From assembly GCF_003254295.1 (NCBI RefSeq), contig NZ_QKZO01000003.1, forward strand, positions 73,973 through 137,972: 64,000 nt of DNA, read 5' to 3'. Under the pieces are notes generated by a model that ran no database searches, was not told the origin of the DNA, and worked only from the letters and a program-made list of their open reading frames with translations. This document shows positions 2,769-62,302 of this stretch, piece after piece. A program made the position numbers and the translations under genes. This DNA comes from Rhodobacter capsulatus (GTDB lineage Bacteria; Pseudomonadota; Alphaproteobacteria; Rhodobacterales; Rhodobacteraceae). Within the stretch, counting starts at the first letter, position 1, and every line of letters begins with the position of its first letter.

Positions 2769-4400
2769 ATGATCTGGGCTGTCTCTCTTGTCTGCCTGTC
2801 GGGGGCCGCGCTTGCGGCCTGGCACTTCCAGCGGCCAGGGCCGCCGCGGGTGCGGATCTCGTTCCTGCGCTTTCTGGGCGCCTTGCCGCCAGCGCCGACG
2901 CGCGCGACACGGTTGGCCCTTGTCTGGCCGCGGGATCCGATCTCCCTGCTCTGCCTCGTGCTCGCGGTTCTGGCCGCGCTCTGGGCCTTGCGAAACGCCG
3001 AGCGGACCATTCTGGCAGAGCGGCCCGACCATCTGGGCCTGCGGGTGGTGCTTGATGCCAGCCATTCGATGAGCCTGACCGAGCCGGGCACGCAGGATGC
3101 CGGGGCGACGCGCTATGCGCGCGCGCTGGCGCGGATCGAAGCGGCGCGCCGGGTGATCGCCGGTGCCGGGCCGCAAAGCCTTTGCGTCGAGCTTGTGGCC
3201 GTGGGCGCGCAGGCCGGGCCGGTGACGCCGCTGCCCGCGGACCGGCCGGTGACCGCCCTTGCCCCCGCCGCAGCGCTGCCGCAAGGCGCAGACCCCGCCC
3301 GCCTGACCGAGGCCGCCGCCCTGCCCCGCGGCGCTTGCGCGCTCAGCCATGTGCTGATCGTCAGCGATCTGCCGCCCACCGGCGCCACCCGCCTGCCCGA
3401 TGGCGTGCCGATCCTGTGGGATCAGATCGGCGCGCCGCAGGATAATGCGGGGCTGCGCAGTCTGGCGCTGCGGCCCGCCGCTTTCGGCCAGGTGCAACCG
3501 GAGCTGCTGATCTTTGGCAGCGCCAGCGCCGCCCTGCCCGAGCGGGTCTTGCTGAACGGTCCCGGCCGCGCGCAGGAGCTGCCGGTGATGGCGCTGGCCG
3601 AGGGCGGACCGGGCGCCTGGCAAGCGATCGGCTCCTATGCCGGACCGGGCCGCTACGAGGCGCTTCTGCCCGAGGGCGGCGCCTATCGCGGCGATGACCG
3701 GATCGTCACGACGCTGAGCGCGCCGCCGCAACTGGCGGTGGACTGGCGCCTGAGCGGCCTTGCGCGCCCGGCGGCGCTGGCTGCGGGCGGCGCGGGCGAT
3801 CTGCTGGTCACCGCGCGCAGCGCGCTGCGCCCGGGCGATCTTGCACGCCCGCTGATCCTGACCTATCCCGCCTTTTCCGGCGCCCGCGCCCCCCTGCGGC
3901 TTGGCGCCTTTCGCGAAGACCCGGCCCTGTTGCGGATGCTCAGTCTCGACGCGCTCGAAGCCGCCGGTCCCGCCGCCTGGCCCGCGCCCCTGCCGCCGGG
4001 TTTTCTGCCCGTCCTGACGCTCGAGACCGGCGCGGTCATCGCCGCCCGGCGTCTTTCGCCGCCGGGGCTGATCCTGCCCGAGCCGGTCCTGGACCCCGCC
4101 AGCCCCGCGCGCAATCTGACGCTCGCGCTGTTCTTCGGCGGGCTGGCCGATCTGGCGGCACCTCCGCCGCAACCGCAGCCGCTGCGCTGGGGTCTGCCCG
4201 ACGGCACCGAGATCACGCAGGCCTGGCGGGAAAGCGCCACCGCGCGACCAGCCGGGAGACCCGCCGATCTGGCGCTGCTGACCGATCCGGGCGACAGACG
4301 GCAGACCGAACCGGCCTGGCCCTGGGCGCTTGTGCTGGCGCTGGCGGCGCTGCTGGGCGAGCGTCTGAACCGCGCGCTGCGCCGCAAGGAGGGTGTGTGA
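2769..4400 (+). CDS. BatA-like membrane vWA protein
   Basis: This 543-residue protein starts with two hydrophobic segments (about residues 2-18 and 55-75), the pattern of the BatA/aerotolerance N-terminal region. A vWA domain follows, with metal-site motif DASHSMS near residue 97. The middle is a beta-rich, Ala/Pro-rich region without a recognised domain. A last hydrophobic helix (AWPWALVLALAALLGERL) lies near the C-terminus, before a basic tail. The protein is therefore probably membrane anchored at both ends with the vWA domain on one face. The stop overlaps the next start (TGATG), which indicates translational coupling. It is probably a client of the MoxR ATPase; the family resemblance is clear, the exact role is not. 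Confidence 0.8.
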   Translation: MIWAVSLVCLSGAALAAWHFQRPGPPRVRISFLRFLGALPPAPTRATRLALVWPRDPISLLCLVLAVLAALWALRNAERTILAERPDHLGLRVVLDASHSMSLTEPGTQDAGATRYARALARIEAARRVIAGAGPQSLCVELVAVGAQAGPVTPLPADRPVTALAPAAALPQGADPARLTEAAALPRGACALSHVLIVSDLPPTGATRLPDGVPILWDQIGAPQDNAGLRSLALRPAAFGQVQPELLIFGSASAALPERVLLNGPGRAQELPVMALAEGGPGAWQAIGSYAGPGRYEALLPEGGAYRGDDRIVTTLSAPPQLAVDWRLSGLARPAALAAGGAGDLLVTARSALRPGDLARPLILTYPAFSGARAPLRLGAFREDPALLRMLSLDALEAAGPAAWPAPLPPGFLPVLTLETGAVIAARRLSPPGLILPEPVLDPASPARNLTLALFFGGLADLAAPPPQPQPLRWGLPDGTEITQAWRESATARPAGRPADLALLTDPGDRRQTEPAWPWALVLALAALLGERLNRALRRKEGV

Positions 4401-6931
4401 TGGACTGCACCCTCGCCCCCGCGCTCGCGCTTCACGGGGACAGCCTGCAATGCCTTGGCGGCTCTGCCGTGCCCTGGGCGCTGGCGGCGGCGGCGGCCGC
4501 GCTGGGGCTGAGCCTGCTGCTTGCACTGCGCGACCGGCGGCGCGGGCCGATCCGTTTCATGTCGCTCGCATCGGTCGCGGCGGCGCTATGGCTGCTGGCG
4601 CTTGCAACCGAACGGCCGGTGCTGACGCATCACGCCGATCAGGCGAGCGGCGGGCAGATCGTCGTCGTGCTCGATAATTCCGAAAGCTTCTGGCGCGATC
4701 AAACTGCCGCACGCGACGCGCTGCAGCTTGCGGCCCGGCGGATCGACGATTTCGCCGCGGCCCTGCCGCCAGAAGAAGCCGCGCTGTGGCGTGGCCAGCT
4801 GGTGAGTTTCGGGGCCGCCGCCCGGATCGAAGGCGGGCAGATGGCGCTGCCCGAACTCGCCGCCGATCTGCGCCGCCGCGACACGCCCCGGCCCGCGGCG
4901 CAAAGCGCGCTTGCAAGCGGATTGCGCAAGGCCGAGGGGCTGCTGTCCGAGGTCGCCGGGCGACGGCTGATCGTGCTGGTGAGCGACGGGCTGACGCCGC
5001 CGCCCGAGCCCGCGCTGCACGACGCGCTGCGCGCCGCCGGGATCGCGGTGCATGTGGTGATCGCAGGCGCCAGCGCGCCGGGCGCCGGGCTGGTGGCGGC
5101 GGATCTGGGGCCGGAATTCCGGCTGGGCGATGCGGCGGTGATCCGGGTCACGACACTGGGGGCGGGCCAGCTCGGCGTGAGCCAGGACCGGCAGGCGCAA
5201 AGCGTCGATGTCGCCCCCGCCGAGACCCTGCAGGCGGCACGGCTCGTCACCCGTTTCGCCCGGCGCGGATTGCAGGGCTTGCGGCTCTCCTTCGCCACCG
5301 AGGGCGGGCAGCAATCGCGCGATCTTTTCACCCTGGTGCGCGGGCCCGCAAGGCTGCTCGTCTTCGGCCCCGCCCCCTGGGCCGAGGCCTTGCCCGCCCG
5401 GCGCTGGCAGATCACCCGCGCCCGCCCCGAGGCGCCGCCCGATCCCGGGCGCTTCGATCTGGTGGTGATCGATGCCGCCGTGCCCGCGGATTTTCCGCAA
5501 GGCTATGACCGCAAGCTGTTGCAGGCCGCCGACGGCACCGGGTTGTTCCTGATCAACGGCGGCTTGCGCGACAGCCGCGAAAAGGAACAGCGCATCTCCG
5601 ACTGGGGCCGCTCGGCGCTGGCGCCGATCCTGCCGGTCGACAGCGACCCGCGCGCCTTCCAGCAGGAACCGCCGCCGCGGGATATCGTGATCATGGTGGA
5701 TGTGTCGGGCTCGATGGCGGGAACGCGCCTTGGCTCGGCGCAAAGCGCGATCCAGGCGATCTTGCGACACTTGCGGCCGCGCGACACGGTGGCGATCCTG
5801 CCCTTTGCCGATGTCACGATGCCGCGGTTCGAGAAAACCGAGGCCTCGCCCTCGGCGCTCGCGGCGGCGCGTCGTTTTGCGGCCGGGCTGACCGCGGGCG
5901 GCGGCACCGCACCCGACAGCACGATCCGCGCCTCGGCCGGTTTCGTGTCGAACTACTGCGCCTTCTTCTTCATTTCGGATGCGGAATTCGACCCTCCGGC
6001 CACCGCGCCCCAGTGTTTCACTACCGCCATTTCGGTGTCCAACCAGCATTTCGCGATGGATATCGACGCCTGGGGCGAGGAGATCCGGCTGGGCGAGGGC
6101 GGCAATGCCGAGCAGCTGGAGTTGCGCTATTTCACCCCCGAGCCACGCACGGAATACTTCCGCGAAGGCGGCTTCGCGCCGCTCGCGGTCGATGGCGCAG
6201 CGCCGCAGGCGCTGCCGCGGGTCGAGGGGCTGGCGATCAGCTACCCCCGGCAGGATGCCACGGTGCGGCTGCTGCACGAGACCCCGCCCCCCGATCCGCT
6301 TTTCGCGCTTCGGCGCGACAGCCGCCGTCCGGGCGTGGTCACCGGCGCCTTTCTCGGGCCGATGGGCCGCGCCTGGTCGGGCAAAGCCGCGACCGAGGCG
6401 ATGCTTTCGTCGCTTCTCGGCTGGCCCGATCAGGATCGCTACCTGCTGCAGCTCGAGGACGAGGGCGCGGTGCTGCGGCTCTGGGTCACGGTGCTGACCG
6501 GGGCGGAACGCGCGGTCTCGGGGCAGATCTCGGCCACGCTGCAATGGCCCGATGGCGCGACGACGGGCATCGCGCTGGAACATGACGCACGGCGGGGCGG
6601 CTGGACGGGCAGCTTCGCGCGCCCCGCGCAGGGCACCAGCCGCGGGTTGCTGACGGTGCAGGACGGGGCGGATGTGCAACGCATCCCGGTGCAGATCCCG
6701 GATGCGGCGCCGGGCAGCCTGCCGGAGCGCGAGGCGCTGCAGTTCGGCGTTGATCTGCCGCTGCTGACGGGGCTGGCGCAGGCCACCTCGGGCACGCGGC
6801 TCGACCTCTCCGCGCTGCCGCCGCTGCCGGTGGCGGGAACGATGCAACACCGGCCATTGCACGGCCCGCTGATCGTGATCGCCTTTCTGCTGCTCGCCGC
6901 GACCCTCTGGCTGCGGGAGGTCCGGCGATGA
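4400..6931 (+). CDS. Large membrane protein with two vWA domains
   Basis: This 843-residue protein has two N-terminal transmembrane segments (about residues 25-45 and 54-74). Its first vWA domain has motif DNSESF, with Glu before the second Ser. A second, canonical vWA domain begins near residue 430 with DVSGSMAGTRLG. A C-terminal helix (LIVIAFLLLAATLW) and a basic end follow. Duplicated vWA domains with terminal membrane anchors fit a BatA/BatB-like pair fused into one polypeptide. The gene overlaps its predecessor by one base. A 49-nt gap then separates it from the next gene, the widest within region A, so a promoter or processing site could lie there. A structural or scaffold role is inferred. 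Confidence 0.78.
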   Translation: MDCTLAPALALHGDSLQCLGGSAVPWALAAAAAALGLSLLLALRDRRRGPIRFMSLASVAAALWLLALATERPVLTHHADQASGGQIVVVLDNSESFWRDQTAARDALQLAARRIDDFAAALPPEEAALWRGQLVSFGAAARIEGGQMALPELAADLRRRDTPRPAAQSALASGLRKAEGLLSEVAGRRLIVLVSDGLTPPPEPALHDALRAAGIAVHVVIAGASAPGAGLVAADLGPEFRLGDAAVIRVTTLGAGQLGVSQDRQAQSVDVAPAETLQAARLVTRFARRGLQGLRLSFATEGGQQSRDLFTLVRGPARLLVFGPAPWAEALPARRWQITRARPEAPPDPGRFDLVVIDAAVPADFPQGYDRKLLQAADGTGLFLINGGLRDSREKEQRISDWGRSALAPILPVDSDPRAFQQEPPPRDIVIMVDVSGSMAGTRLGSAQSAIQAILRHLRPRDTVAILPFADVTMPRFEKTEASPSALAAARRFAAGLTAGGGTAPDSTIRASAGFVSNYCAFFFISDAEFDPPATAPQCFTTAISVSNQHFAMDIDAWGEEIRLGEGGNAEQLELRYFTPEPRTEYFREGGFAPLAVDGAAPQALPRVEGLAISYPRQDATVRLLHETPPPDPLFALRRDSRRPGVVTGAFLGPMGRAWSGKAATEAMLSSLLGWPDQDRYLLQLEDEGAVLRLWVTVLTGAERAVSGQISATLQWPDGATTGIALEHDARRGGWTGSFARPAQGTSRGLLTVQDGADVQRIPVQIPDAAPGSLPEREALQFGVDLPLLTGLAQATSGTRLDLSALPPLPVAGTMQHRPLHGPLIVIAFLLLAATLWLREVRR

Positions 6932-44075: not shown

Positions 44076-44351
44076 ATGCGCGATACACTCAACAAGTCTC
44101 TTGAAGTGCTGATCTGGATCGCCACCACGCTGATGGTGGTGGGCGCGTGCTATCTGGGCGCGATGGTGATCCGGCTTTCGGGGGTGCCTGGCGTCCCGGA
44201 CCCCTCCTGGGTGATGGTCTTCGGCTTTTTGATGATCATCTTCGGGGTCACGATGTCCTTCGTGTTTGCGGGCATCTGCTTTCAGATCATGGATATCCGC
44301 ACCTTCACCAAACACGCCGCCTTTGCGCTGCGCATGCCGCAAAAACGTTGA
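44076..44351 (+). CDS. Small two-helix inner-membrane protein
   Basis: This 91-residue protein has two membrane helices, about residues 10-32 (VLIWIATTLMVVGACYLGAM) and 46-68 (WVMVFGFLMIIFGVTMSFVF), with short termini and a basic C-terminus. AAGGAAAGGG lies upstream of the ATG. It lies between the TagR-like and kinase 2 genes, 18 and 14 nt apart, so it belongs to the operon. I recognise no family. It could help kinase 2 assemble or dimerise in the membrane; this is only positional inference. Confidence 0.72.
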   Translation: MRDTLNKSLEVLIWIATTLMVVGACYLGAMVIRLSGVPGVPDPSWVMVFGFLMIIFGVTMSFVFAGICFQIMDIRTFTKHAAFALRMPQKR

Positions 44352-44365
44352 GCGGGGGGACAAGG

Positions 44366-45718
44366 ATGTCCGCTGGGACGCAAGTGCTGAAACCCGGATC
44401 GGTGGTGCAGGACAGCTATCGGATCGAGTCCCTGCTGGGCGAGGGCGGCATGGGCGCCACTTACCGCGCGATCAATCTGGCCACGGGGCATCCGGTCGCG
44501 GTCAAGGTGATGTCGCCCGCTTTCGCGGCCAACCGGCAGGCGGTCGAGCTGTTTCGCCGGGAATCGACGCATTTGCGCGCGGTGCAGCACGAGGCGATCA
44601 TTCGCTATGAAACCACCTTGCAGGACCGCGAGGGGCGCCTGTTCCTCGTGATGGAATTTGTCGATGGCAAGCCGCTGAAACACTATCTGGCGCGGGGGCA
44701 GCGGCTGGGTTCGGCCGATGTTCTCGGGCTTGGGCTGCGCCTGGCGCAGGGGCTTGACTGCATCCATGCGCTCGGTCTGGTGCATCGCGACATCGCGCCC
44801 GACAACATCCTGATTCCGGGCGACAACGTGAAAAAGGCCAAGCTGATCGACTTCGGTCTGGCCTCCGACACGATCGGCACCGACAAGTCGATCATCGGCA
44901 CCGGGTTTGCGGGCAAACTCGACTTTTGCGCCCCCGAGCAATTCGGGTTGTTCGGCAACCGGGTCGGGGCGGCCACCGATTGCTATGCGCTCGGGCTGGT
45001 CTTGATGAAGGTGGCGGGGCTGGCCGTGCCCGGCGAGGGCAAGGGGCTGGCTGCGATCGAAGACCGGCGCGACGATATCGGGATCGACGGGACGCGGATC
45101 TCGGAACCGTTGTGCCGCGTGCTGGAGCGGCTGCTGGTCGCAGATCCGGCCGGACGCGCCACCGACCTTGTGCCGCTGTTCGAGCAGGCCCTGCTTGACA
45201 CCGCGCACCGGCTGGACAAGACCCCCGCCGCCAAAGCGCCGCCGCCCTCTGCCGTCCCGCCCCTGCCGCCTGCGGTCGAACCGGCCGCCGGGAAGGCGAA
45301 TGCCCGTGCAGGCCTGCTGATCGCGCTTGGCCTTGTCGTTCTTCTGGCGCTTGGCGGCGCGGGTTTTGCGCTGATGGGCCAGCACGGGTCCGCCAGATCC
45401 GATGCCGTCGCCCTGGCGGGGCAGGCCCTGCAGGACGACGATCCGATGGCACGGGTCGATGCGCTGATCGCCACGGGGGGCGCGGACAATCTCAATGCGG
45501 CGCTGGGCAGTCTGATGAAGCTGGCCAACGACCCGGTTCAACCGCTCGAGATCCGCCGCGAGGCGACGCTTGCCATTGCCCGGATGTATGATCCGGCAAC
45601 GCATGACCCGGCCCGGTCCCCGTTTGCCGCGCCCGATCCGGCTGCGGCGCAGCGATTTTACCAGAAGGCGGCAGCGCTGACCGAAGATGCCGCCGCGCAA
45701 GCAAGGGTTTCGCCATGA
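44366..45718 (+). CDS. Ser/Thr protein kinase with TM helix (kinase 2, PpkA-like catalytic half)
   Basis: This 450-residue protein carries a kinase domain at residues ~15-290: GEGGMGATYRA, VAVKVM (Lys), HRDIAPDNIL and DFGLAS. The subdomain VI motif has Ala where HRDxK is usual; catalytic Asp and Asn are kept, so activity is plausible with a modified active site. A Pro-rich linker and a membrane helix near 312-332 follow, then a short periplasmic domain with TPR/HEAT-like helices. ATG 44366 has GGGGGA upstream. Its stop overlaps the ATG of the secreted vWA protein. In P. aeruginosa PpkA, kinase, helix and a periplasmic vWA domain are one polypeptide; here the same parts are split over two genes. 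Confidence 0.9.
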   Translation: MSAGTQVLKPGSVVQDSYRIESLLGEGGMGATYRAINLATGHPVAVKVMSPAFAANRQAVELFRRESTHLRAVQHEAIIRYETTLQDREGRLFLVMEFVDGKPLKHYLARGQRLGSADVLGLGLRLAQGLDCIHALGLVHRDIAPDNILIPGDNVKKAKLIDFGLASDTIGTDKSIIGTGFAGKLDFCAPEQFGLFGNRVGAATDCYALGLVLMKVAGLAVPGEGKGLAAIEDRRDDIGIDGTRISEPLCRVLERLLVADPAGRATDLVPLFEQALLDTAHRLDKTPAAKAPPPSAVPPLPPAVEPAAGKANARAGLLIALGLVVLLALGGAGFALMGQHGSARSDAVALAGQALQDDDPMARVDALIATGGADNLNAALGSLMKLANDPVQPLEIRREATLAIARMYDPATHDPARSPFAAPDPAAAQRFYQKAAALTEDAAAQARVSP

Positions 45719-47757
45719 CGCTGTTGCGCTTTTCCGCGCTGATCCGCTGCGCGCTCCTGGGCCTTGGGCTGCCGCTTTGCAGCCTGGCCCTGGCCTGCCC
45801 GTCGCGCGCCGAGACGCCGCTTTTGATGGAGGGCAAGACCAGCCTGCATCAGCGGGTGCTGATCCGCGAGATCACGCCGCGGCACAGCGCCCCGGACCAG
45901 CCCTTGCCCGACAGGCTCAAACCGCTGCAGGCGTTCTATGTCTATGCCCGGGAGGGCGATTGGCTGAAGGTCGGGGCCGAGGAGACCGGCGCGGATCTGT
46001 TCTGGGTCAGGGCCTCTGCCACGACCGATTGGAAGCAGAACATCGTTGCGACGCTTGAAGGATCGGAAAACCTCGGGCGGCTGCTGTTCTTTGACGGCTA
46101 TGACAGCGCCTATGGCGTCGTGGAGGCCGAGGACCCGGCCCTTGCGGCTGCGGCCTTGCGCGCCGAAGCCGAGGCTGCCGAGGCCGGTGGCCCGCGCTCC
46201 GAACGGTTGGTCGCGCTCGGGCCGCGCACGACGGTGGACATGCGGCGCAATCTTTACGTCATGCCGATCCTCTCCTCGGAAGAGGCGGTGTTCGAAAACG
46301 GGAATTTCGTCAACCTGTTGCAGGTTGCCGTGGCACGGGCGAACCCGGACCGGGCGGAGGCGCCCTCCGCTTCCGCGGCGGCCCCCGCCCCCTTGACGGC
46401 CGCGGACGAGGTTCCGCTTGAGGACGGGGAGGCCCCGGCTCCTGCCGCGCCGGGCTCCGGCTATCGCGCCGGGGTCGTTTTCGTTGTCGACACGACGATA
46501 TCGATGCAGCCCTACATTGATGCCACCCGCGCGGCGCTGACGGAAATCTATGCGCAGGCGGGGCGATCGGGGGCCTCGGACAAGTTCGCCTTCAGTCTGA
46601 TCGGCTTTCGCGACGATGCGGCCGCGGTGCCGGGTCTTGACTATCAGACCCGCACCTTCGTCACCTTGCAAGATGGCGCTTCGCCGGAGAAGTTCCTGGC
46701 CGGCATGGAAGAGATGACCGAGGCCCGGGTTTCCACGCGCAGTTTCCGCGAGGATTCCTACGCCGGGATCGATCAGGCGATCAGCGCGATCGACTGGACC
46801 GGGTTCGGGGCGCGGTTCATCGTGCTTGTCACCGATGCGGGCCCGCGCGAGGCGGGCGATCCGCTTTCTGCCACCGGGCTGAGCGCCGAAGGGTTGAGCG
46901 CGCTGGCGCGCGAACGGGCGCGGGCGGCCATCATGGTGATGCATCTGCGCACCCCCAAGGGGGCGAAAGACCACGCCACCGCCGAGGCCGCCTATCGTCG
47001 CCTTGCCGCGCAACCCAATGGTGATCCGCTGTATTTTCCGATCGAGCAGGGAACCCCCGAGATCTATCGGCAAAAGGCCCATGACGTGGGCGCCTTCATC
47101 GTCGATCAGGTGACGCGGTTTCAGGACGGCGCGTCGAACCTGCCCGATGCGCCCGGGGTCGCCGCAGAGCCCGCCCCTGCGGATGCGGGCCTGGCCGCGG
47201 TCGCCTCGGTCGGGCGCACCATGCATCTGGCCTGGCTTGGCTCGCAAAAAGGCGAAAAGGCCCCCGATGTGTTCGAGGCGGTGGTCGCCGATCGCGACTT
47301 CGACCGGCCCGGGCTCAAGCCCTTGTCGATCCGGGTGCTGATCAGCAAGTCCGAGTTGAGCGATTTGCAGGAGGCGCTGAAGATCATCGTCCAGTCCGCC
47401 GAGGACAATGTGATCGACCCCGACAAGTTCTTTGCGCAGGTTCTGGGGGCCGCGGCCGACATGAGCCGCAGCCCGGACAAGGTGAAACGCCGCGCCGATG
47501 CCAGCCTTGCCGATGTCACGGCGATCAGCGAATATCTTGAGGGGCTGCCCTACAAGTCGCGGATCATGGCGATCACCAACGACGACTGGCTTCGTCTGTC
47601 GATTTCCGAACAGCAGACCGTGGTGAACGAGCTGCATGAAAAGATCGAGCGCTACAGCCGTTACAACGAGGCCACCGATGCCTGGGTGGATTATCTGGGC
47701 ACCGGGGCCGGAGCCGCGGCGCTGGTCTATCCGATGCGGCTTGACGATTTGCCCTGA
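45715..47757 (+). CDS. Secreted SH3-like + vWA protein (PpkA sensor-half-like)
   Basis: This 680-residue protein begins with a signal region (LLGLGLPLCSLALACPSRA). An SH3-like segment follows (LQAFYVYAREGDWLKVGAEE ... DLFWVRASATTDWKQNIV), then a stretch with Ala/Glu helices. A vWA domain near residue 255 shows FVVDTTISMQPYIDATRAAL (DTTIS metal site), FRDDAA and LVTDAGPREAGD. The C-terminal 200 residues are helical. SH3-like plus vWA is the architecture of the periplasmic half of PpkA. It overlaps kinase 2 by 4 nt, and no helix tethers it, so it may bind kinase 2 or the TagR-like protein in the periplasm. It is the last gene of region C. Confidence 0.85.
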   Translation: MTLLRFSALIRCALLGLGLPLCSLALACPSRAETPLLMEGKTSLHQRVLIREITPRHSAPDQPLPDRLKPLQAFYVYAREGDWLKVGAEETGADLFWVRASATTDWKQNIVATLEGSENLGRLLFFDGYDSAYGVVEAEDPALAAAALRAEAEAAEAGGPRSERLVALGPRTTVDMRRNLYVMPILSSEEAVFENGNFVNLLQVAVARANPDRAEAPSASAAAPAPLTAADEVPLEDGEAPAPAAPGSGYRAGVVFVVDTTISMQPYIDATRAALTEIYAQAGRSGASDKFAFSLIGFRDDAAAVPGLDYQTRTFVTLQDGASPEKFLAGMEEMTEARVSTRSFREDSYAGIDQAISAIDWTGFGARFIVLVTDAGPREAGDPLSATGLSAEGLSALARERARAAIMVMHLRTPKGAKDHATAEAAYRRLAAQPNGDPLYFPIEQGTPEIYRQKAHDVGAFIVDQVTRFQDGASNLPDAPGVAAEPAPADAGLAAVASVGRTMHLAWLGSQKGEKAPDVFEAVVADRDFDRPGLKPLSIRVLISKSELSDLQEALKIIVQSAEDNVIDPDKFFAQVLGAAADMSRSPDKVKRRADASLADVTAISEYLEGLPYKSRIMAITNDDWLRLSISEQQTVVNELHEKIERYSRYNEATDAWVDYLGTGAGAAALVYPMRLDDLP

Positions 47758-47850
47758 GCCGTCGCGCAGGGCTTGCGCGGGCGGCAAGGGCAGCCCCTGC
47801 AAGACCCGGCAGCGCGCCGAGACCGAAGCCGCGATCGCAGTTGCAGCGAT

Positions 47851-47911
47851 ACCGCCGGACCTTCTCGAAGACGTTCGAGCCGCCATCGGATGCAGGAGCG
47901 ACGCCGCCTGA
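47851..47911 (+). pseudogene. 3' remnant of a coiled-coil gene (paralogue of 51368-51733)
   Basis: The + frame reads [21 protein letters not shown] then TGA, matching the last residues of the coiled-coil protein encoded at 51368-51733 ([20 protein letters not shown]). The upstream part of the gene is missing; the preceding bases belong to the downstream flank of the vWA gene. It is the 5' portion of direct repeat copy 1 and evidence that a second copy of the small-gene element once lay here. Confidence 0.65.
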
Positions 47912-48030
47912 TCCCCGACACTGTCCACAAGCCCTGGGGCGGGGGAAAACCTCGACCGCTTTCCCGTCACAGGCGAGTCGGCCGAACCGGAAAGCCGCAT
48001 GTGTCACACACGCCGGACTGCGCCACACAC
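47851..48030 (+). repeat. Direct repeat copy 1 (~180 bp) bounding the phage fragment
   Basis: This segment aligns by eye along its whole length with 51673-51850, in the same orientation. Both copies start with the same coding tail (PPDLLEDV in the + frame) and share a hairpin region, the block CACAGGCGAGTCGGCC and an end with CACACGCC(G/A)GACTG. The two are clearly related but diverged; I estimate roughly three-quarters to four-fifths identity. The DUF3168-like phage frame is cut exactly where this copy begins. Two copies separated by 3.8 kb could recombine and excise the material between them, or they mark two insertions of the same element. Confidence 0.75.
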
Positions 48031-48397
48031 CTTCGGGCTGCGGGTCGCGCAGCCAGACCAGGCACGGTTGCGCCCAGTCGTCGAGGCTGATCTCGGCCGT
48101 GTCTTTCGGCCCGAACTCCAGCGCGGCATGGATCGCCGCCCCGATCTGGCGCGCGGTGTCGGCACCGTCTTCCTGCGCCCAGATGTGCAGCGTCACGAAC
48201 ACCCGCGCGAGACGCTGCGAACCGGCCGCGCAGCCCAGGAACTCGGTGCGGGCATCGCCCAGCACCACCGAAGGCAGGCGCTCGGGGCGGATGCTGCCTG
48301 CGCGAATGTTCGCGGGCTGCACATGGGCCAGCACCTCGGGCGCGGTGATCAGCGCCGCGCGCACCGCGGTTTGAAAGGCAAGAGCCGGGTCAAGCAT
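48031..48397 (-). pseudogene. DUF3168-like phage tail-completion protein, C-terminally truncated
   Basis: ATG 48397 opens a frame (MLDPALAFQTAVRAALITAP ... FVTLHIWAQEDGADTARQIG) that matches the tail-terminator/DUF3168 family over about 120 residues. At ~48030 it runs into direct repeat copy 1 and continues into unrelated, low-complexity sequence down to 47573, so the native end of the gene is lost. It overlaps the HK97-gp10-like gene stop upstream, the usual order head-tail connector, gp10-like, DUF3168. The gene is probably no longer functional. Confidence 0.7.
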
Positions 48398-48869
48398 GAT
48401 CCCCCCCTTGCGCGGCTTTGCGCACGGCTTGACCGATCGCGCGGGCGATCCGGCGCCGGGCGCGATCCTCGGTCAGACGCGCGGCGGGCAGAAGGAAGGG
48501 CTGCGCCGCGGTGCCGGGGTGCTGCGTGCCCGCGAATTGCCCGGCGTTCACATGCGGCTTCGTGCCGAACTCGAAAAGGTGGCCGTGTCGCTGTTCGGGG
48601 TTGCCCACCGTGATAAGCGCCTGATTGCCCCCCGCGATGCGACGGCCGCCGCCTTCGGCATAAGCCGGGGTCTCGGCGCCGGGCGGGGTCACGACGATCG
48701 ACGCCTTCAGATCACCCTCGGCCTCGGGGGCAAGGCTGCGCGCGGTGGCGGCAAGGTCTTCGGCCGCCTGCACCACGGCGGGGCGCAGGGATTCCAGAAC
48801 GGTTGCGGGAATCGCTTCAAGGCGCCGCGCCAGCCGGGCGGCTTGGGCGTTCAGGTCCAGCTCGGCCAT
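48390..48869 (-). CDS. HK97-gp10-like phage protein
   Basis: This 159-residue protein is related to HK97 gp10, a tail-tube completion/connector component. Typical features are the N-terminal helical segment (ARLARRLEAIPATVLESLRP), the KASIVVTPPG strand and HGHLFEFGTKPHVNAGQFAG near the middle, followed by the helical end AARLTEDRARRRIARAIG. ATG 48869 directly follows the stop of the head-tail connector, so coupling is likely. Its surroundings show it is a relic of a decayed prophage, not part of a functional tail module. Confidence 0.85.
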   Translation of the reverse strand: MAELDLNAQAARLARRLEAIPATVLESLRPAVVQAAEDLAATARSLAPEAEGDLKASIVVTPPGAETPAYAEGGGRRIAGGNQALITVGNPEQRHGHLFEFGTKPHVNAGQFAGTQHPGTAAQPFLLPAARLTEDRARRRIARAIGQAVRKAAQGGDHA

Positions 48870-48870
48870 G

Positions 48871-49155
48871 TCAGACCACCCAGACCCGATGAGGTTGCAA
48901 GAGGTCATGCACCCCGAATGGCACGGCATAGGGCGCACCCCCGGCCTGCGCGGCCTCGCGGGCCTCATACCAGAAGGCGGCCAGCATCAGCACCGCTTGC
49001 CGGATCGCGGCCGGAAGGGGCTCGGTCAGCGGCGCACCGATGAAGCTTGCGACATGGGCTTCGGCTGCGTCGATCTGGTGCGACAAAAGCGCATCATCAA
49101 GGTCGTGGTCGATGTTGAGCTGGGCTTTCAGCTCGGGCACGGTAACGAAAGGCAT
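48871..49155 (-). CDS. Phage head-tail connector (gp6-like)
   Basis: This 94-residue protein starts MPFVTVPELKAQLNIDHDLDDALL and contains AAEAHVASFIGAPLTEPLPA, the gp6-like/QLRRP connector pattern. It is the usual length for the family. ATG 49155 is preferred over an in-frame ATG 45 nt upstream because it gives the family N-terminus. The capsid, portal and terminase genes that normally precede it are missing; instead an AT-rich unrelated gene lies upstream. Confidence 0.83.
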   Translation of the reverse strand: MPFVTVPELKAQLNIDHDLDDALLSHQIDAAEAHVASFIGAPLTEPLPAAIRQAVLMLAAFWYEAREAAQAGGAPYAVPFGVHDLLQPHRVWVV

Positions 49156-49325
49156 ACTCGAAAACTCGTCAAGAAAGGCATGCGTGATAATGTAACACAT
49201 GCCTTCAACGGTTTGAAGAGTCTGCGAAAAAGTTATTTAGCGCCCATCCTGCGCAGACCTCCCCCCGCCGGTCCGGGGAAGGTTCCGCAAAATCAATGAC
49301 ACGCCCGGCACATAAGGTTGTGCGT

Positions 49326-50177
49326 TTATGCCCGGGGTTTCCACTCTTGCGCCAGAGAATCTATTGGTCGCAACTTGAGGATCTTTGGCCTGTTCTCTAT
49401 CGAAATTCTTTTGCCCTGATATGACAAGTGAAATAGAAATCTAAATTCTCTCTCGGACTCAAATGATCTGGGTTTAATAAATGGAATGCTCTCCTTCAGG
49501 GCTCTCACTTCAGATACGGGGAAGTCTTCTTCGCATGTTGCAATAATGACTCTGTCCCTATAAGTGACGGGGCGCATTTCCGCATTTAATGACAGCCCTC
49601 TCTGTATCTCTTGAAGACTCTTTGTGTCTCTTATGGTTGCGGGGAGATCAAGCAAATCAACGCTTTCCCAAAGCAATTGCGCAATATATGTCGCAAAGTC
49701 GGTAACCTTTTCACCCGGTATGGTCCACTTGGAGTTGTGAGCACAAGAAATATTTCCGGCCGCGTCTGAAGTGGTTGATACGCAAAAGACCCAGCAATTC
49801 GCGTAGGAGGCTGCAATGCTGGCTTCGCGGATGGAAAATATTCCGTTGGAAAACTGCATTTGACCAATATGCACATTTCTGGCGATATCTCCGCCGATTT
49901 CAGAAATCCATTCATTTGAAACTGGCGTTAAATCAGGAAATCGAATCTTATAATCTAACGTCCCCTCTCCTTCATCCCTAAGGTGAGCATTTTCTTCATC
50001 TCTAAAGCCCCAAAGAGTTCCAACCCTAATAGTATTGCAGCCATTGAAGATATTATGCTCCGGTGCGCAAAATTTGAACAAGCCGGGAGGTGCAAAGCTT
50101 ACGAGTGACATAAAAGAGACTCCAGAAATGGCCTGCAATTTTGCATTATCTTGATTAAATTTTGCGAGAGTCAACAA
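49326..50177 (-). CDS. AT-rich cargo gene in the phage relic, unknown function
   Basis: This 283-residue protein is encoded by DNA much richer in A/T than everything around it, with codons such as AAT, TTT and ATA that neighbours avoid, so it was acquired from another source. I recognise no named family. FKFCAPEHNIFNGCNTIRVG and TLWGFRDEENAHLRDEGEGT form a conserved-looking N-terminal block, and the C-terminal half has many charged and aromatic residues (ESEREFRFLFHLSYQGKR). The layout loosely recalls DUF2971-type proteins that sit near defence genes. No signal peptide or membrane helix is visible. It replaces the terminase-capsid block of the phage, the usual site of moron or defence cargo. 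Start ATG 50177 or 50108 (MSLVSFAPPG). Confidence 0.7.
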   Translation of the reverse strand: MLTLAKFNQDNAKLQAISGVSFMSLVSFAPPGLFKFCAPEHNIFNGCNTIRVGTLWGFRDEENAHLRDEGEGTLDYKIRFPDLTPVSNEWISEIGGDIARNVHIGQMQFSNGIFSIREASIAASYANCWVFCVSTTSDAAGNISCAHNSKWTIPGEKVTDFATYIAQLLWESVDLLDLPATIRDTKSLQEIQRGLSLNAEMRPVTYRDRVIIATCEEDFPVSEVRALKESIPFIKPRSFESEREFRFLFHLSYQGKRISIENRPKILKLRPIDSLAQEWKPRA

Positions 50178-50451
50178 TTTTTGCGCGCGGCCGCTCCGAT
50201 CTCAGATCCTTTGATAGATTCTCCCGCATCCGGGCAATCACGGCTCCCATGTCCACCCCGGCCAGTGCGCAGACCATTGCAAGGTCGCGACTCGGCCGGG
50301 TCAGGTAGTCGCGCGCCTCGCGCATGATCAGGGCTTTGTCGGCGGGCTTGGGCACATGGCGCGGCCCTTTGGTCGCGTCTTCCACCGTGCGATAAAGCAC
50401 CTCAAGCCACAGGTTCCGCTCGGGGTTCCGGCGTGCAGGCGCCTCAAACAT
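50155..50451 (-). CDS. Small phage-associated protein following the HNH gene
   Basis: This 98-residue protein (MFEAPARRNPERNLWLEVLY ... SRDLAMVCALAGVDMGAVIA) is of unknown function. The Ala/Gly/Val helix-turn-like segment LAMVCALAGVDMGAVIARMR could be a DNA-binding helix pair. Its ATG overlaps the HNH stop by 8 nt. Small proteins of this type next to HNH genes are common at the start of phage packaging modules. Its end overlaps the start of the AT-rich gene by 23 nt, and the last ~15 residues may have been changed by the junction with that insert. Confidence 0.6.
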   Translation of the reverse strand: MFEAPARRNPERNLWLEVLYRTVEDATKGPRHVPKPADKALIMREARDYLTRPSRDLAMVCALAGVDMGAVIARMRENLSKDLRSERPRAKIVDSRKI

Positions 50452-50781
50452 CGCCCGCCCGCTCTTGCCTTTGCTTCACCCGGTCATGGCAGGGCTTGCA
50501 GAGCGCTTGCCAGTTGTAGCGGTCCCAGAAGAGCGCCTTGTTCCCCCGGTGCGGGGTGATGTGATCGACCACGCTCGCCACCGCCCCGCAGAGCGCGCAA
50601 CAGGGGTGGCAAAGCAGGAACGCCGCGCGCTCTTTTTCCCAATCAGTCGTGTAACCGCGCTCGCGGGCCGAGGGGCGTTTTGCATCGTGGCGGCGCTTGC
50701 GGGCGCGGTCGGCGTCTTTCTGGCAAGTGCAGCGCGCGCCACAAGGTGGCCACAGGCGCAGATATGGGGCGGGCGGGGCAT
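50444..50781 (-). pseudogene. Phage HNH endonuclease, frameshifted
   Basis: The gene starts at ATG 50781 (MPRPPHICACGHLV). The family's Zn-finger and HNH part (ARCTCQKD, GYTTDWEKERAAFLLCHPCC, VVDHITPHRGNK, WQALCKPCHDR) reads in a different frame that has no start codon of its own. The frame changes in a GCGCGC run near 50731-50742, consistent with loss of one base. Taken together the two frames make a complete phage HNH nuclease of ~110 residues. The stop at 50444-50446 overlaps the next gene. The gene is inactivated, unless the shift is a base-call error. Confidence 0.72.
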
Positions 50782-51363
50782 GTCAGGTCATCGCTTTCAG
50801 ACGGCGCAGGCCCTCGCGGTCCAAGGCCGGGTCGAAGCCCAGCTCTTCGATCTCGCGCAGTCGCGCGGGGGTGTATCCGCCTTCCCTCGGAACGTATCGA
50901 ACAACTGCGCCAGATCGCCGAGGCGAGGCACACCACCATTGCCGAAGTGATCGCCCGGTTCGTCCGGTCAGAGATCGCGGCTGGCACCATCCCGGCGACT
51001 GTGCCCGGTGTCGTCGTGCAAAGGACAGGCGCCGAAATCATCATCACCGCAAACGGCTTTGACGCTGCCGTGCCGATGGATCAAGGCCCGACGCTTGCAG
51101 ATGTGCTTAAAGGGGCCGCGACCCTCTCGGTCGATCCCGAGCGCAAGAAGCAATGGCTCGAAGGGCTCGCCGCGCTGTCGGGTATTCAGGTCAAACGCGC
51201 GGGCAATGGCTTGAAGCTTGTCTCCGGCCTCACCAAACGAGAGTTCCCTCTCGCACTCGACGTTGCGGTTGACCTTGGCGAAGCAATCGCGCGCGCGGCC
51301 GAACAAGAAAGGGGCGACGCTGCAACGCCGCCCCGCCCGATGAAGGTTTATGCGATAATATAA
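50764..51363 (+). CDS. Ribbon-helix-helix-type DNA-binding protein, 5' end uncertain
   Basis: From about 50875 the frame encodes IRLPSERIEQLRQIAEARHT and TIAEVIARFVRSEIAAG, an RHH (CopG-like) DNA-binding module. A ~110-residue C-terminal region with NGFDAAVPMDQGPTLADVLK and LSVDPERKKQWLEGLA follows, ending MKVYAII. The only in-frame ATG is at 50764, but its first ~36 codons are antisense to the phage gene fragments and look unnatural, so the native start was probably lost at the junction. The coiled-coil gene begins 4 nt after its stop. The pair may regulate the element, for example by binding the inverted repeat at 51822-51849; that link is a guess. Confidence 0.6.
   Translation: MGRAGHVRSSLSDGAGPRGPRPGRSPALRSRAVARGCIRLPSERIEQLRQIAEARHTTIAEVIARFVRSEIAAGTIPATVPGVVVQRTGAEIIITANGFDAAVPMDQGPTLADVLKGAATLSVDPERKKQWLEGLAALSGIQVKRAGNGLKLVSGLTKREFPLALDVAVDLGEAIARAAEQERGDAATPPRPMKVYAII
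50783..50884 (-). pseudogene. C-terminal fragment of a phage gene upstream of the HNH gene
   Basis: The - strand frame ending at TGA 50783-50785 reads YTPARLREIEELGFDPALDR followed by EGLRRLKAMT, a plausible native C-terminus, and stops one base before the HNH ATG (TGACATG). Upstream it runs into the ribbon-helix-helix gene encoded on the other strand, so its 5' part has been replaced. This marks the right-hand breakpoint of the phage fragment near 50.88 kb. The exact junction cannot be fixed by eye. Confidence 0.4.
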
Positions 51364-51367
51364 CGCC

Positions 51368-51733
51368 ATGACAGCCAACAACGAAAGGCAAGCGCCTGCA
51401 TGGAAAACGGCTAAGCTCGAAGCGCTGCTGGCCGACATCAAGGCCGAGAATGAGCGAAAGCGCGCAGAACGTAACGCGAGACGGTGGAAGGAAGAGCGCG
51501 ATCCTGTCGCCTATGAGAAACAAAAGAAAGATCAGCGCGCTACCTATGCGGCTAGGAAAGGCGAAGCCGAGCTTCGACGTGCCGAAGCTGAAGCCAAGGT
51601 CGCGCGGATCAAGCGCGATCTTGTTCTGAAATCGCTCGAACGCGACGAAGCCGATGACGCCCTTGCGCAGAGACCACCGGACCTTCTCGAAGACGTTCTT
51701 GCCGCCGTCGAACGCAGGCTCGAAGCCGCCTGA
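51368..51733 (+). CDS. Small charged coiled-coil protein paired with the RHH gene
   Basis: This 121-residue protein is almost entirely charged helix: [40 protein letters not shown] and further Arg/Glu heptads, ending [19 protein letters not shown]. No membrane or signal sequence is seen. It begins 4 nt after the RHH gene and ends inside direct repeat copy 2. A shortened 3' copy lies at 47851-47911. RHH plus helical protein is a common layout of small two-gene regulatory or toxin-antitoxin-like pairs, but no toxin fold is recognisable. Confidence 0.7.
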
Positions 51734-51850
51734 TCCCCGGCGTTATCATCAAGCACGCGGGCGGGGTGAAAACCTCGCCCGTTTTCATGTCACAGGCGAG
51801 TCGGCCCAACCGGAAAGCCCATGTGTTACACACGCCAGACTGTAACACAC
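51673..51850 (+). repeat. Direct repeat copy 2 (~180 bp), tRNA-proximal
   Basis: This is the partner of 47851-48030 in the same orientation. It includes the end of the coiled-coil gene, a transcription terminator, the block CACAGGCGAGTCGGCCCAAC and a 9-bp inverted repeat TGTGTTACA / TGTAACACA (51822-51830 and 51841-51849, 10-bp spacer) that is perfect here and degenerate in copy 1. It ends 50 nt from the 3' end of tRNA-Pro. The perfect palindrome may be a binding site for an element-encoded regulator or recombinase. Confidence 0.72.
51758..51785 (+). terminator. Rho-independent terminator after the coiled-coil gene
   Basis: A 9-bp stem (CGGGCGGGG with CCTCGCCCG, one G-U pair), a TGAAAA loop and a following TTTT lie 25 nt after the stop at 51733. 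It would end the RHH/coiled-coil transcript. The equivalent place in repeat copy 1 has a weaker, altered hairpin. Confidence 0.65.
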
Positions 51851-51900
51851 AGCCGACCAAAACCACACCTAAGCCGTCGATTATAAATGGAAATTCGGAT

Positions 51901-51977
51901 TGGTCGGGGCGGCGAGATTCGAACTCACGACCTTCTGTACCCAAAACAGACGCGCTACCAGGCTGCGCTACGCCCCG
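51901..51977 (-). tRNA. tRNA-Pro(TGG)
   Basis: This is a 77-nt tRNA on the - strand with encoded CCA. The acceptor stem CGGGGCG/CGCCCCG is perfect, the D arm is GCGCAGCCTGGTAGCGC, and the anticodon stem CTGT/ACAG encloses loop TTTGGGT, giving anticodon TGG (Pro). The T arm carries GTTCGAATC. The 3' end faces the phage relic and direct repeat copy 2, the usual orientation for a tRNA used as integration site. I saw no second copy of the tRNA 3' end in the window. Confidence 0.95.
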
Positions 51978-60895: not shown

Positions 60896-62302
60896 TTACT
60901 TGGTCTTCCCTGCCCCGATCAGCGCCGAAAGCGGCGCGAGGTTGTAATTCGCCCCCTCCTCGGCGGCCCAGGCGGTCAGACCGGCGACGGATTCGGGCCA
61001 GGCCGAGAGCATGACGACCGTCGCGCCGTCGCGGGCCGCCTCGAACCCGGCGCGGCCGAGGGTGCGGGTGATCACCGCCGCCTTGTCGCGCCGCGCGTCC
61101 AGAACCCGGAAGATGCCCGCGCGCGGCACGTCTTTCGTGGCCCGCGCGCCGATGCCGCCCGGTTGCGTCACATAGGCCATGCCCTCGGCGGCGAGCGCCT
61201 TTTCCGCCTGCGCCAGAAGCGGCGCCTTGCCCTGCAGCACCGGCGTTTCCGGCTCGACCAGCGCCACCGCCTGCGGCACCGCCCGCTGCCAGGCCGCCAG
61301 CGCCACCTCGAGATCCTGCGCCTGCGCGCCCGCGGGCAGGGCCCCGGCCAGCATCGCCACCTCGAGCCCGGCGGCACGGTAGGTCGCGGCCGCCTCGGTC
61401 ACGCCGGGGGCCGCGGGGTCGAGCACCACCGTCACCCAGCTTCCCAGCGCCGCGATCGTCTGCGCGTCAAGCCCGCCCGCCGTGGTGCCGACATCAACGA
61501 GCAGCACCGTCACATAGGGCTTGCCCGGCTTTTCCACGAAAGCCGCGCCAAAGCGGGTCAGCGCCGGGCCGGTCGCTTCGGGCGCGGGCTGCGGCGCGGG
61601 GTCGGTCACGAAGGGCGGCACCGGCGCGCCCGAGGGCGGCACGGAACTGCCCTGCGGCGCCGAGCCCACCTGCGGCAGGCGGTTCACCTTCGTCCCCTCG
61701 GCCGAGGCGAAGCCCGCGCCCCCCTCGCCCGGCCCGCCTTGCCCCGGCACGATCACCCGCGGCCGCGCGGGGCCCGGCGGCACCAGCGCGCCATCGGGCA
61801 TCAGGGTGATCTCGCCGCCCGGACCAGCGGCGGGTGCGGGCGCGGCGGGGGGCAGATCGGGGGGCAGATCGGGGGCGGTGGCGATGCCGGGCGGCGGCAC
61901 CGGCATCGCAGGCTCGGCCTGCGGCGGGATGTCGAGCGCGACGGCGGGAGTTTGCGGCGGCGGCGCGATCACCGGCGGCGTCACCGCGGTTTCGGGCCTC
62001 GCGGGCGGCTCGGTCGTGGCGGAGGGCGGCCCCCCGGTCCGCGGGGGCCGGGCGGTTTCGGATTTCGCGGGCGGTGTCTCGGGCAGCGGCGGCACGGCGG
62101 CGGCGGCGGACGGGCCTTCGGGCGGCGCCACCGCCTGCGCGGGCGCGGGATCGGCGGGGGCGGGGTCAAGCGGCGCGGCCTTGGGCGGCGCGGTCCGGCC
62201 CGGGCCCTGCGACGGCAGCGGCAGCACCAGCGAGACCGTGCCAAGCCCCAGCCCCGAGACGACCACCCCCGCAACCATGCCCTTGATCAGACCGCCTGCC
62301 AT
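60896..62302 (-). CDS. yibQ: Divergent polysaccharide deacetylase (YibQ-like)
   Basis: This 468-residue protein has an N-terminal membrane helix (IKGMVAGVVVSGLGLGTVSL), a ~200-residue Pro-rich linker (PPPQTP, PPDLPPAAP and similar) and a C-terminal NodB-like domain of the divergent DUF610 class (VLLVDVGTTAGGLDAQTIAA, ATVVMLSAWPESVAGLTAWA). Catalytic metal-binding residues of true deacetylases are largely missing. ATG 62302 has GAGGGG upstream. Its place between trpE and trpG on the opposite strand recalls the trpE-yibQ-trpGDC locus known from Rhodobacter sphaeroides. Confidence 0.8.
   Translation of the reverse strand: MAGGLIKGMVAGVVVSGLGLGTVSLVLPLPSQGPGRTAPPKAAPLDPAPADPAPAQAVAPPEGPSAAAAVPPLPETPPAKSETARPPRTGGPPSATTEPPARPETAVTPPVIAPPPQTPAVALDIPPQAEPAMPVPPPGIATAPDLPPDLPPAAPAPAAGPGGEITLMPDGALVPPGPARPRVIVPGQGGPGEGGAGFASAEGTKVNRLPQVGSAPQGSSVPPSGAPVPPFVTDPAPQPAPEATGPALTRFGAAFVEKPGKPYVTVLLVDVGTTAGGLDAQTIAALGSWVTVVLDPAAPGVTEAAATYRAAGLEVAMLAGALPAGAQAQDLEVALAAWQRAVPQAVALVEPETPVLQGKAPLLAQAEKALAAEGMAYVTQPGGIGARATKDVPRAGIFRVLDARRDKAAVITRTLGRAGFEAARDGATVVMLSAWPESVAGLTAWAAEEGANYNLAPLSALIGAGKTK

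Follow-up and report, generated by a model that had tools for sequence, protein, structure and literature searches.

The described systems closest to the locus analysed here are of two kinds. Among mobile elements these are the cf-PICIs, capsid-forming phage satellites with a mean size of 14 kb, and Alphaproteobacteria are not among the hosts named in the part of the source drawn on here (PMC10803314). Among proteins the nearest named families are DUF2971 (PF11185) and, linked to our gene only through DUF2971, the lactococcal abortive infection family AbiGi (PF10899). The gene in question lies in a 64-kb stretch of the Rhodobacter capsulatus genome (the window, to which coordinates refer unless a locus is named), in a cargo slot of a decayed phage-like element. 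Judging from sequence comparisons, we propose with moderate confidence that it is an intact one-gene phage-exclusion accessory (moron).

The first-pass annotation of the window had described the gene at 49326-50177 as differing sharply in composition from its GC-rich surroundings. It is a minus-strand ORF of 283 codons, and the measurements agree with this description. The G+C content of the ORF is 0.440 vs. 0.688 for the window; stretches of 852 bp across the window have a mean of 0.687 (sd 0.046), and none outside the cargo gene is equally low. At third codon positions the value is 0.45, compared with 0.69-0.84 in seven other measured genes. The true start is probably ATG 50111 rather than the ORF edge at 50177, because homologues begin at about this point and a GGAG, a possible ribosome-binding site (50120..50123, minus strand), lies 8 nt before it. 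The resulting coding sequence (49326..50111, minus strand) would specify 261 aa. A promoter-like TTGACT-18-GATAAT sequence is found upstream of the ATG (50145..50174, minus strand), and the gene may be driven by a promoter of its own; this site, between the TTG codon and ATG 50111, is the one found in the stretch searched, vs. 1.2 expected by chance, and terminators number 0 vs. 1.8 by chance.

A related intact element of the same genus, G010, is situated beside the same tRNA-Pro, where its head-tail block runs the opposite way. By blastn the flanks of the cargo agree between G010 and the window at 94% identity over 1248 bp on one side and 96% over 374 bp on the other, with no match from 49281 to 50234, and the G010 slot is occupied by genes of 81 and 197 aa that differ from the window gene. 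The genes of G010 are ordered as integrase, portal, protease-capsid fusion, TAC-type gene, HNH, DUF98 and cargo, followed by connector, gp10, gp17, adaptor, a 213-aa gene, terS, terL, a tape-measure-like gene and an Arc-like gene, and a 17-bp tRNA-end sequence is present at both element ends, 17,683 bp apart. Ten of the approximately 20 proteins were scanned with Pfam, giving matches to portal, Peptidase_S78/Phage_capsid, Terminase_4, TerL and TAC_6 and a sub-threshold match to PhageMin_Tail; the integrase was identified via DUF6538, its Phage_integrase score being 26.3 bits against a cut-off of 27.1. No AlpA or replication gene was found among these ten proteins, and no tail tube, baseplate or lysis genes were recognised in them or by eye. 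The host element of the window gene would be an integrative, capsid-encoding phage-like element of approximately 17 kb from bacteria that, judging by the closest named homologues, are Rhodobacteraceae-like.

Replacement in so close a relative supports well, at the sequence level, the assignment of the gene as prophage or satellite cargo (moron), and to this extent the original suggestion of a phage-carried moron or defence gene holds. The accompanying idea, that the gene stands in place of the terminase-capsid block, does not. In G010 the portal and capsid genes are found upstream of HNH and the terminase genes further downstream, past the head-tail genes, which leaves nothing displaced where the cargo stands. 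A displaced terminase-capsid block is ruled out by this order together with the order of the markers in 12 further elements, the latter read only as far as each stretch extends.

Around the cargo gene the window element is considerably rearranged. The gene does lie, as first annotated, between HNH and head-tail genes, more precisely between an HNH/DUF98 pair and the connector, HK97 gp10 and gp17 genes. Upstream of it are the 98-aa DUF98 element gene (50155..50451, minus strand), with a divergent end at the cargo junction (near 50234), and a broken HNH remnant (50447..50781, minus strand), which, set against the intact copy of G010, shifts frame after approximately residue 14 and which has no HNH domain match in a Pfam scan. 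Downstream, profile matches identify a head-tail connector (Phage_connect_1; 48871..49200, minus strand) and an HK97-gp10-like gene (48390..48968, minus strand), which are followed by a gp17-like tail completion gene (47984..48397, minus strand); the last residues of the latter diverge, its frame continues without the stop, and DNA similarity to G010 ceases at 48033. Beyond the HNH remnant, the last 35 residues of a 212-aa TAC-type gene (50786..50890, minus strand) abruptly join an Arc-like gene (50872..51363, plus strand) that runs opposite to the preceding block and lacks approximately 40 N-terminal residues. Direct copies of a repeat of approximately 206 bp, 81% identical, are located on either side of the relic (47824-48029 on the left; 51646..51851, plus strand, on the right), an arrangement that would fit either two ends of elements or a tandem that once existed. 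Part of this repeat also adjoins tRNA-Pro in G010. The tRNA-Pro(tgg) gene of the window (51901..51977, minus strand) starts, on the plus strand, with the 17 bases of the G010 att core, of which there is one exact copy in the window, at the tRNA, and a one-mismatch copy at 61810 (minus strand).

The G010 integrase, portal, protease-capsid, adaptor, 213-aa, terminase and tape-measure proteins had no match anywhere in the 64-kb window at E ≤ 1e-3. By its gene content the window element is a rearranged relic, from which the genes for integrase, portal, capsid, adaptor, terminase and tape measure have been lost. The octamers GTGTTACA/TGTAACAC, possibly an operator of the element, occur only three times in the window (49191, 51823 and 51841), always inside the relic. 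They are located at the integrase, connector and tRNA ends of G010, at 12227 and 12240 in L079 and at 1558, 11742 and 11760 in L072, and are missing from the L155, L158 and L174 stretches. By eye, the stretch adjoining the relic (44147-47757) has one Ser/Thr-kinase-like ORF and another, of 680 aa, that contains a von Willebrand-like segment.

The position taken by the cargo gene is a recurrent one, between HNH/DUF98 and the head-tail connector and ending near a conserved cos-like sequence. DUF98 homologues were detected in 14 of 394 family genomes, and 11 of 18 genus genomes had matches, many of them weak, to a DNA query from DUF98/HNH; both counts include the own genome. Nineteen stretches were fetched, and the 12 with HNH or DUF98 followed by a connector were kept, giving 14 slots with G010 and the window; seven (L120, L121 and L125-L129) were dropped for missing this arrangement. 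Among the kept slots, the connector match of L118 covers 25 residues only, DUF98 was undetected in L122 and L123, and the gap was measured from HNH in L114, L122 and L123. All 13 other gaps measure 0.6-2.8 kb and have a G+C content 3 to 18 points below the rest of their stretch. Most carry different cargo and a few are without a clear gene (L119 and L124, the L124 gap being 3 points lower in G+C); L112 has, by eye, a transposase-like ORF, and the shorter similar frames that start at the DUF98 edge in L114, L115, L117 and L124 look like DUF98 extensions. With the family model at E ≤ 1e-3, the family of the window gene had no member in 41 element stretches.

The end of the slot is marked by a conserved 47-bp non-coding module (49228..49274, minus strand) with a GGACC-N10-GGTCC-like core, in which GGACCGGCGGGGGGAGGTCCGCRCARGA is followed by a distal part resembling AATAACTTTT. 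The first 22 bases were recovered within 4 substitutions in 10 of the 14 slots vs. none of 1400 Markov resamples, and within 5 edits in 13 of the 14, L115 being recognised by eye only. The connector match follows at a distance of up to approximately 100 bases in 11 slots, and of 345 (L114), 540 (L122) and 781 (L116) bases, with small ORFs after the module, in the others. The module is kept in L114 despite 45-70% protein identity over most markers. Since a 5-bp inverted repeat encloses 10 bases and HNH and terminase genes are present, the sequence suggests a cos site, although a promoter or terminator role is possible; its RNA fold has a z-score of -1.57. Compared with isolated phages, it gave two chance-level matches (E 5), both to one Streptomyces phage. 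As the slot adjoins this putative cos, cargo would ride at one end of the packaged DNA and leave the structural genes unbroken.

A 28-base pattern derived from the module was found in 20 viral contigs (IMG/VR) of 5.6-30.5 kb, ten of them 15.1-17.9 kb; having been picked by the pattern, these contigs are no independent word on its conservation. A connector match comes after the module in all 20, and HNH or DUF98 precedes it in 18, the other two having 100 and 538 bases upstream. In 15 of 18 cases the G+C content of the gap is below that of the remaining contig, and L158, L161, L169 and L171 have gaps without a clear cargo gene. Several contigs repeat elements already seen, for example L163 (as G010) and L159 (as G009).

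The cargo itself is diverse. One long protein is common to several slots: it has 351 and 362 aa in G902 and G051 (31% identity), is also encoded in the IMG/VR contig L155 (59% to G902), and is preceded each time by a 55-aa ORF for a putative membrane protein that ends in a QAGRDV-NIN-like sequence (L111 3974-5186; L118 3471-4713, in reverse-complement coordinates; L155 6565-7620). This long protein had no PADLOC match and, for L111 and L118, no Pfam match above the cut-off. PADLOC was applied to 18 proteins from 14 cargo loci, the most gene-like being chosen, with L112, L114, L115, L119, L124 and the remaining IMG/VR gaps outside the scan; matches at E ≤ 1e-5 were obtained for three loci and none for the other 11. 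The G005 slot has an AAA ATPase resembling NsnB, one of 81 models hit (E 2.7e-32; PADLOC, Pfam), paired with a 154-aa protein, the G033 slot a type II restriction enzyme (1.5e-27) with a methyltransferase (7.8e-169), and the L157 slot a nucleotidyltransferase-like protein with a partial PDC-S09 match over 34 residues (7.2e-10). Weak matches of L168, a coiled coil (1.3e-4 to 2.7e-4), and L162, to Cas11a (0.013), were left out of the count. A Nal1-type protease-like protein is encoded in the G782 slot. An exported 236-aa protein was also seen by eye among the slot cargo.

The defence part of the first suggestion is plausible, because a type II restriction-modification system and an NsnB-like ATPase occupy the same slot in two other elements; the cargo protein itself matched none of the 5027 PADLOC models at E ≤ 10 (HMMER filters on). 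It also had no match in NCBIfam or in Pfam (0 families at E ≤ 1). The result that would have refuted the first suggestion, a housekeeping gene or a structural phage gene as homologue, was not found; the only match of this kind was a chance-level tail PHROG (E 0.25). The protein matches part of phrog_13198, a 230-position profile of unassigned function (E 5.3e-7, best stretch residues 49-136), as do its relatives in L013 (7.2e-12), L003 (1e-6), L004 (3.9e-7), L002 (1.6e-4) and L011 (0.0028). A six-frame search with this profile missed the own genome at E ≤ 0.001 and matched one of 292 order genomes.

The family is rare and its distribution patchy. The gene was found in its own genome only among 101 searched (relatives and own), and three of 398 phylum genomes matched, the own genome included and the other two weakly and partially. 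Relatives were recovered by tblastn and pattern scans from Proteus, Providencia, Aeromonas, Pseudomonas and other viral contigs, and in addition from Sulfitobacter, other Rhodobacteraceae and a 3164-bp Escherichia coli plasmid. In all nine relatives with listed composition the gene is AT-rich (G+C 0.31-0.49 vs. 0.41-0.62 for the stretch). Judged by eye, prophage-type relatives are AT-rich and near lysis, tail or integrase genes, and Rhodobacteraceae-type homologues stand alone beside gyrA, a TRAP transporter or an RNA methyltransferase, or in the S10 cluster, with no evident defence islands around those of Sulfitobacter and other Rhodobacteraceae. The S10 ribosomal gene cluster is, by eye, interrupted by family members at L004 1051-1866 and L021 701-1426. 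No partner gene is consistently found beside family members. On the plasmid, pEC545_5 (L017 1755-2516), the family gene overlaps the end of rep, rep and rop are the sole other annotated genes, and the DNA of the family gene was present in one of 5426 E. coli genomes. In L029 (3725-4521), a gammaproteobacterial MAG, the gene is divided into two frames (3725-4276 and 4282-4521) and is a probable pseudogene. The relative in viral contig L013 adjoins an HNH gene, and a homologue of that HNH gene (43% identity, E 6.5e-73) occupies the slot of L165 as cargo. Among isolated phages, sequence searches returned no relative of the window, L013 or L002 proteins; relatives of the G010 portal were present in 1259 isolated-phage records, all below 60% identity.

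A 17-member alignment has 11 invariant columns, and the conserved residues are K14, R38, D47, E50, S113, W130, Y185, K214, E221, E223 and R225 (262-residue model numbering). Further loci were collected by a DNA pattern for FxKPxxFxxExE[FY]R. Alignment A3 omits the poor fits among them (L019, L020, L022, L024, L025, L028, L030, L033, L034, L036 and L042), for which E was 1.5e-9 or worse over the motif-holding region (L034 not reported), as well as L040 (a short fragment), redundant viral loci, L002, L003, L004 and L017.

Taken as phage exclusion, the gene would encode a cytoplasmic factor, most likely of the abortive-infection type, whose conserved residues may act in infected cells by sensing or modifying a target of host or phage origin. 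In favour of such a role are the other occupants of the slot, the repeated carriage by prophage-type elements, the minimal plasmid and the HNH cargo shared by L013 and L165; the many slot genes without assignment, the slots lacking clear cargo and the isolated chromosomal homologues weaken it. The gene might instead serve the element, for example by interfering with a helper phage or a competitor or by acting against the defences of the host, with protection of the host incidental. This would suit a mobile, particle-encoding element without recognised tail tube, baseplate and lysis genes, as in satellites, and the location of prophage-type relatives near lysis and tail genes, but the family gene is also carried on a small plasmid and as single chromosomal genes, and here it is still intact although the element is dead, so we regard an element-serving role as unlikely. 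Lysogenic conversion for a host trait unrelated to phage, such as stress, regulation or competition, we consider rather unlikely: most of the scanned slot cargo has no defence assignment, and the protease-like and exported proteins mentioned above would fit such a trait, but no signal peptide or metabolic domain was seen in the cargo protein (by eye, Pfam, NCBIfam), and two clear and one partial defence-type cargo share the slot.

The patchy occurrence and unameliorated composition of the gene could also indicate a selfish or neutral passenger that arrived recently and is heading for decay. Its frame, however, is uninterrupted within a decayed element in which HNH is frame-shifted and truncation or alteration has affected the TAC-type, Arc-like and gp17 genes, which makes a mere passenger quite improbable. 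A structural or packaging role in the phage, as its position inside the late-gene block might imply, is hardly credible, given its absence from the slot in 41 related stretches and the chance level of its one structural PHROG match. Phage exclusion remains the reading that we prefer.

The resemblance to DUF2971 also counts in favour of this reading. When compared by hhalign, the family alignments matched DUF2971 with E 3.6e-5 (7 members) and 4e-5 (17 members) over 105 and 111 columns, with Prob 71 and 70% and a score of about 41, whereas reversed decoys scored 13.3 and 15.2 and the best of 60 column shuffles 16.1. The DUF2971 set consisted of 21 PF11185 proteins gathered with the Pfam model, not by shared motif; a comparison with alignment A4 was not counted since A4 was built from motif-selected loci. 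A second, N-terminal match was collinear and insignificant. Both families have an N-terminal L-[FY]-K-[FY] and a C-terminal K-x(5-7)-E-x-E-[FY]-R in collinear order, whereas the MWxxY motif of DUF2971 is replaced by a YDDxW-type sequence (by eye). The Pfam gathering score of 22 bits was not reached, L013 being best at 15.0 and other scanned members giving no match. On these profile comparisons the cargo family is a distant relative of DUF2971. As to AbiGi, one of four scanned DUF2971 proteins had a sub-threshold match (E 0.012, 16 bits against a cut-off of 22.4), and DUF2971 and AbiGi profiles compared with E 0.005; the direct comparison with the cargo family, using only three AbiGi sequences, was not significant (16.4 vs. 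14.4 for the reversed decoy). The AlphaFold model of the cargo protein is confident (pLDDT 87.2, pTM 0.84) and that of DUF2971 poor (pLDDT 47.2). With the former, neither the PDB nor BFVD yielded a Foldseek match at E ≤ 0.001 and no VIA-align Z was above 2.3, which does not establish a new fold. An H/K...Y...ExE pattern raises the candidate idea of an ADP-ribosyltransferase.

Many new anti-phage systems come from the cargo slots of prophages and satellites, and the slot described here can be mined mechanically, since its flanks are conserved on both sides (HNH/DUF98 and the cos-like module). Directly testable occupants without assigned function include the DUF2971-like family and the 55 plus 351-362 aa pair of three elements. 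More boldly, and only tentatively, one may see in these loci a new family of tail-poor, capsid-encoding integrative elements of Rhodobacteraceae-like bacteria that are phage satellites with a cos-side slot for the exchange of defence genes. The DUF2971-like gene would then be a new anti-phage system made up of a single gene, its fold being still absent from the PDB.

Compared with the cf-PICIs, G010 may differ in its TAC_6 match, its tape-measure-like gene and the lack of AlpA or replication genes among the ten scanned proteins. Capsid and packaging genes together with an integrase are found in G010 and not in the window relic. Similarly to the cf-PICIs, G010 has an integrase and its own portal, protease-capsid, connector and terminase genes, with 17.7 kb between att cores, and from this gene content G010-type elements may lead a satellite life. 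If they are satellites, capsid-encoding satellites would extend to Alphaproteobacteria.
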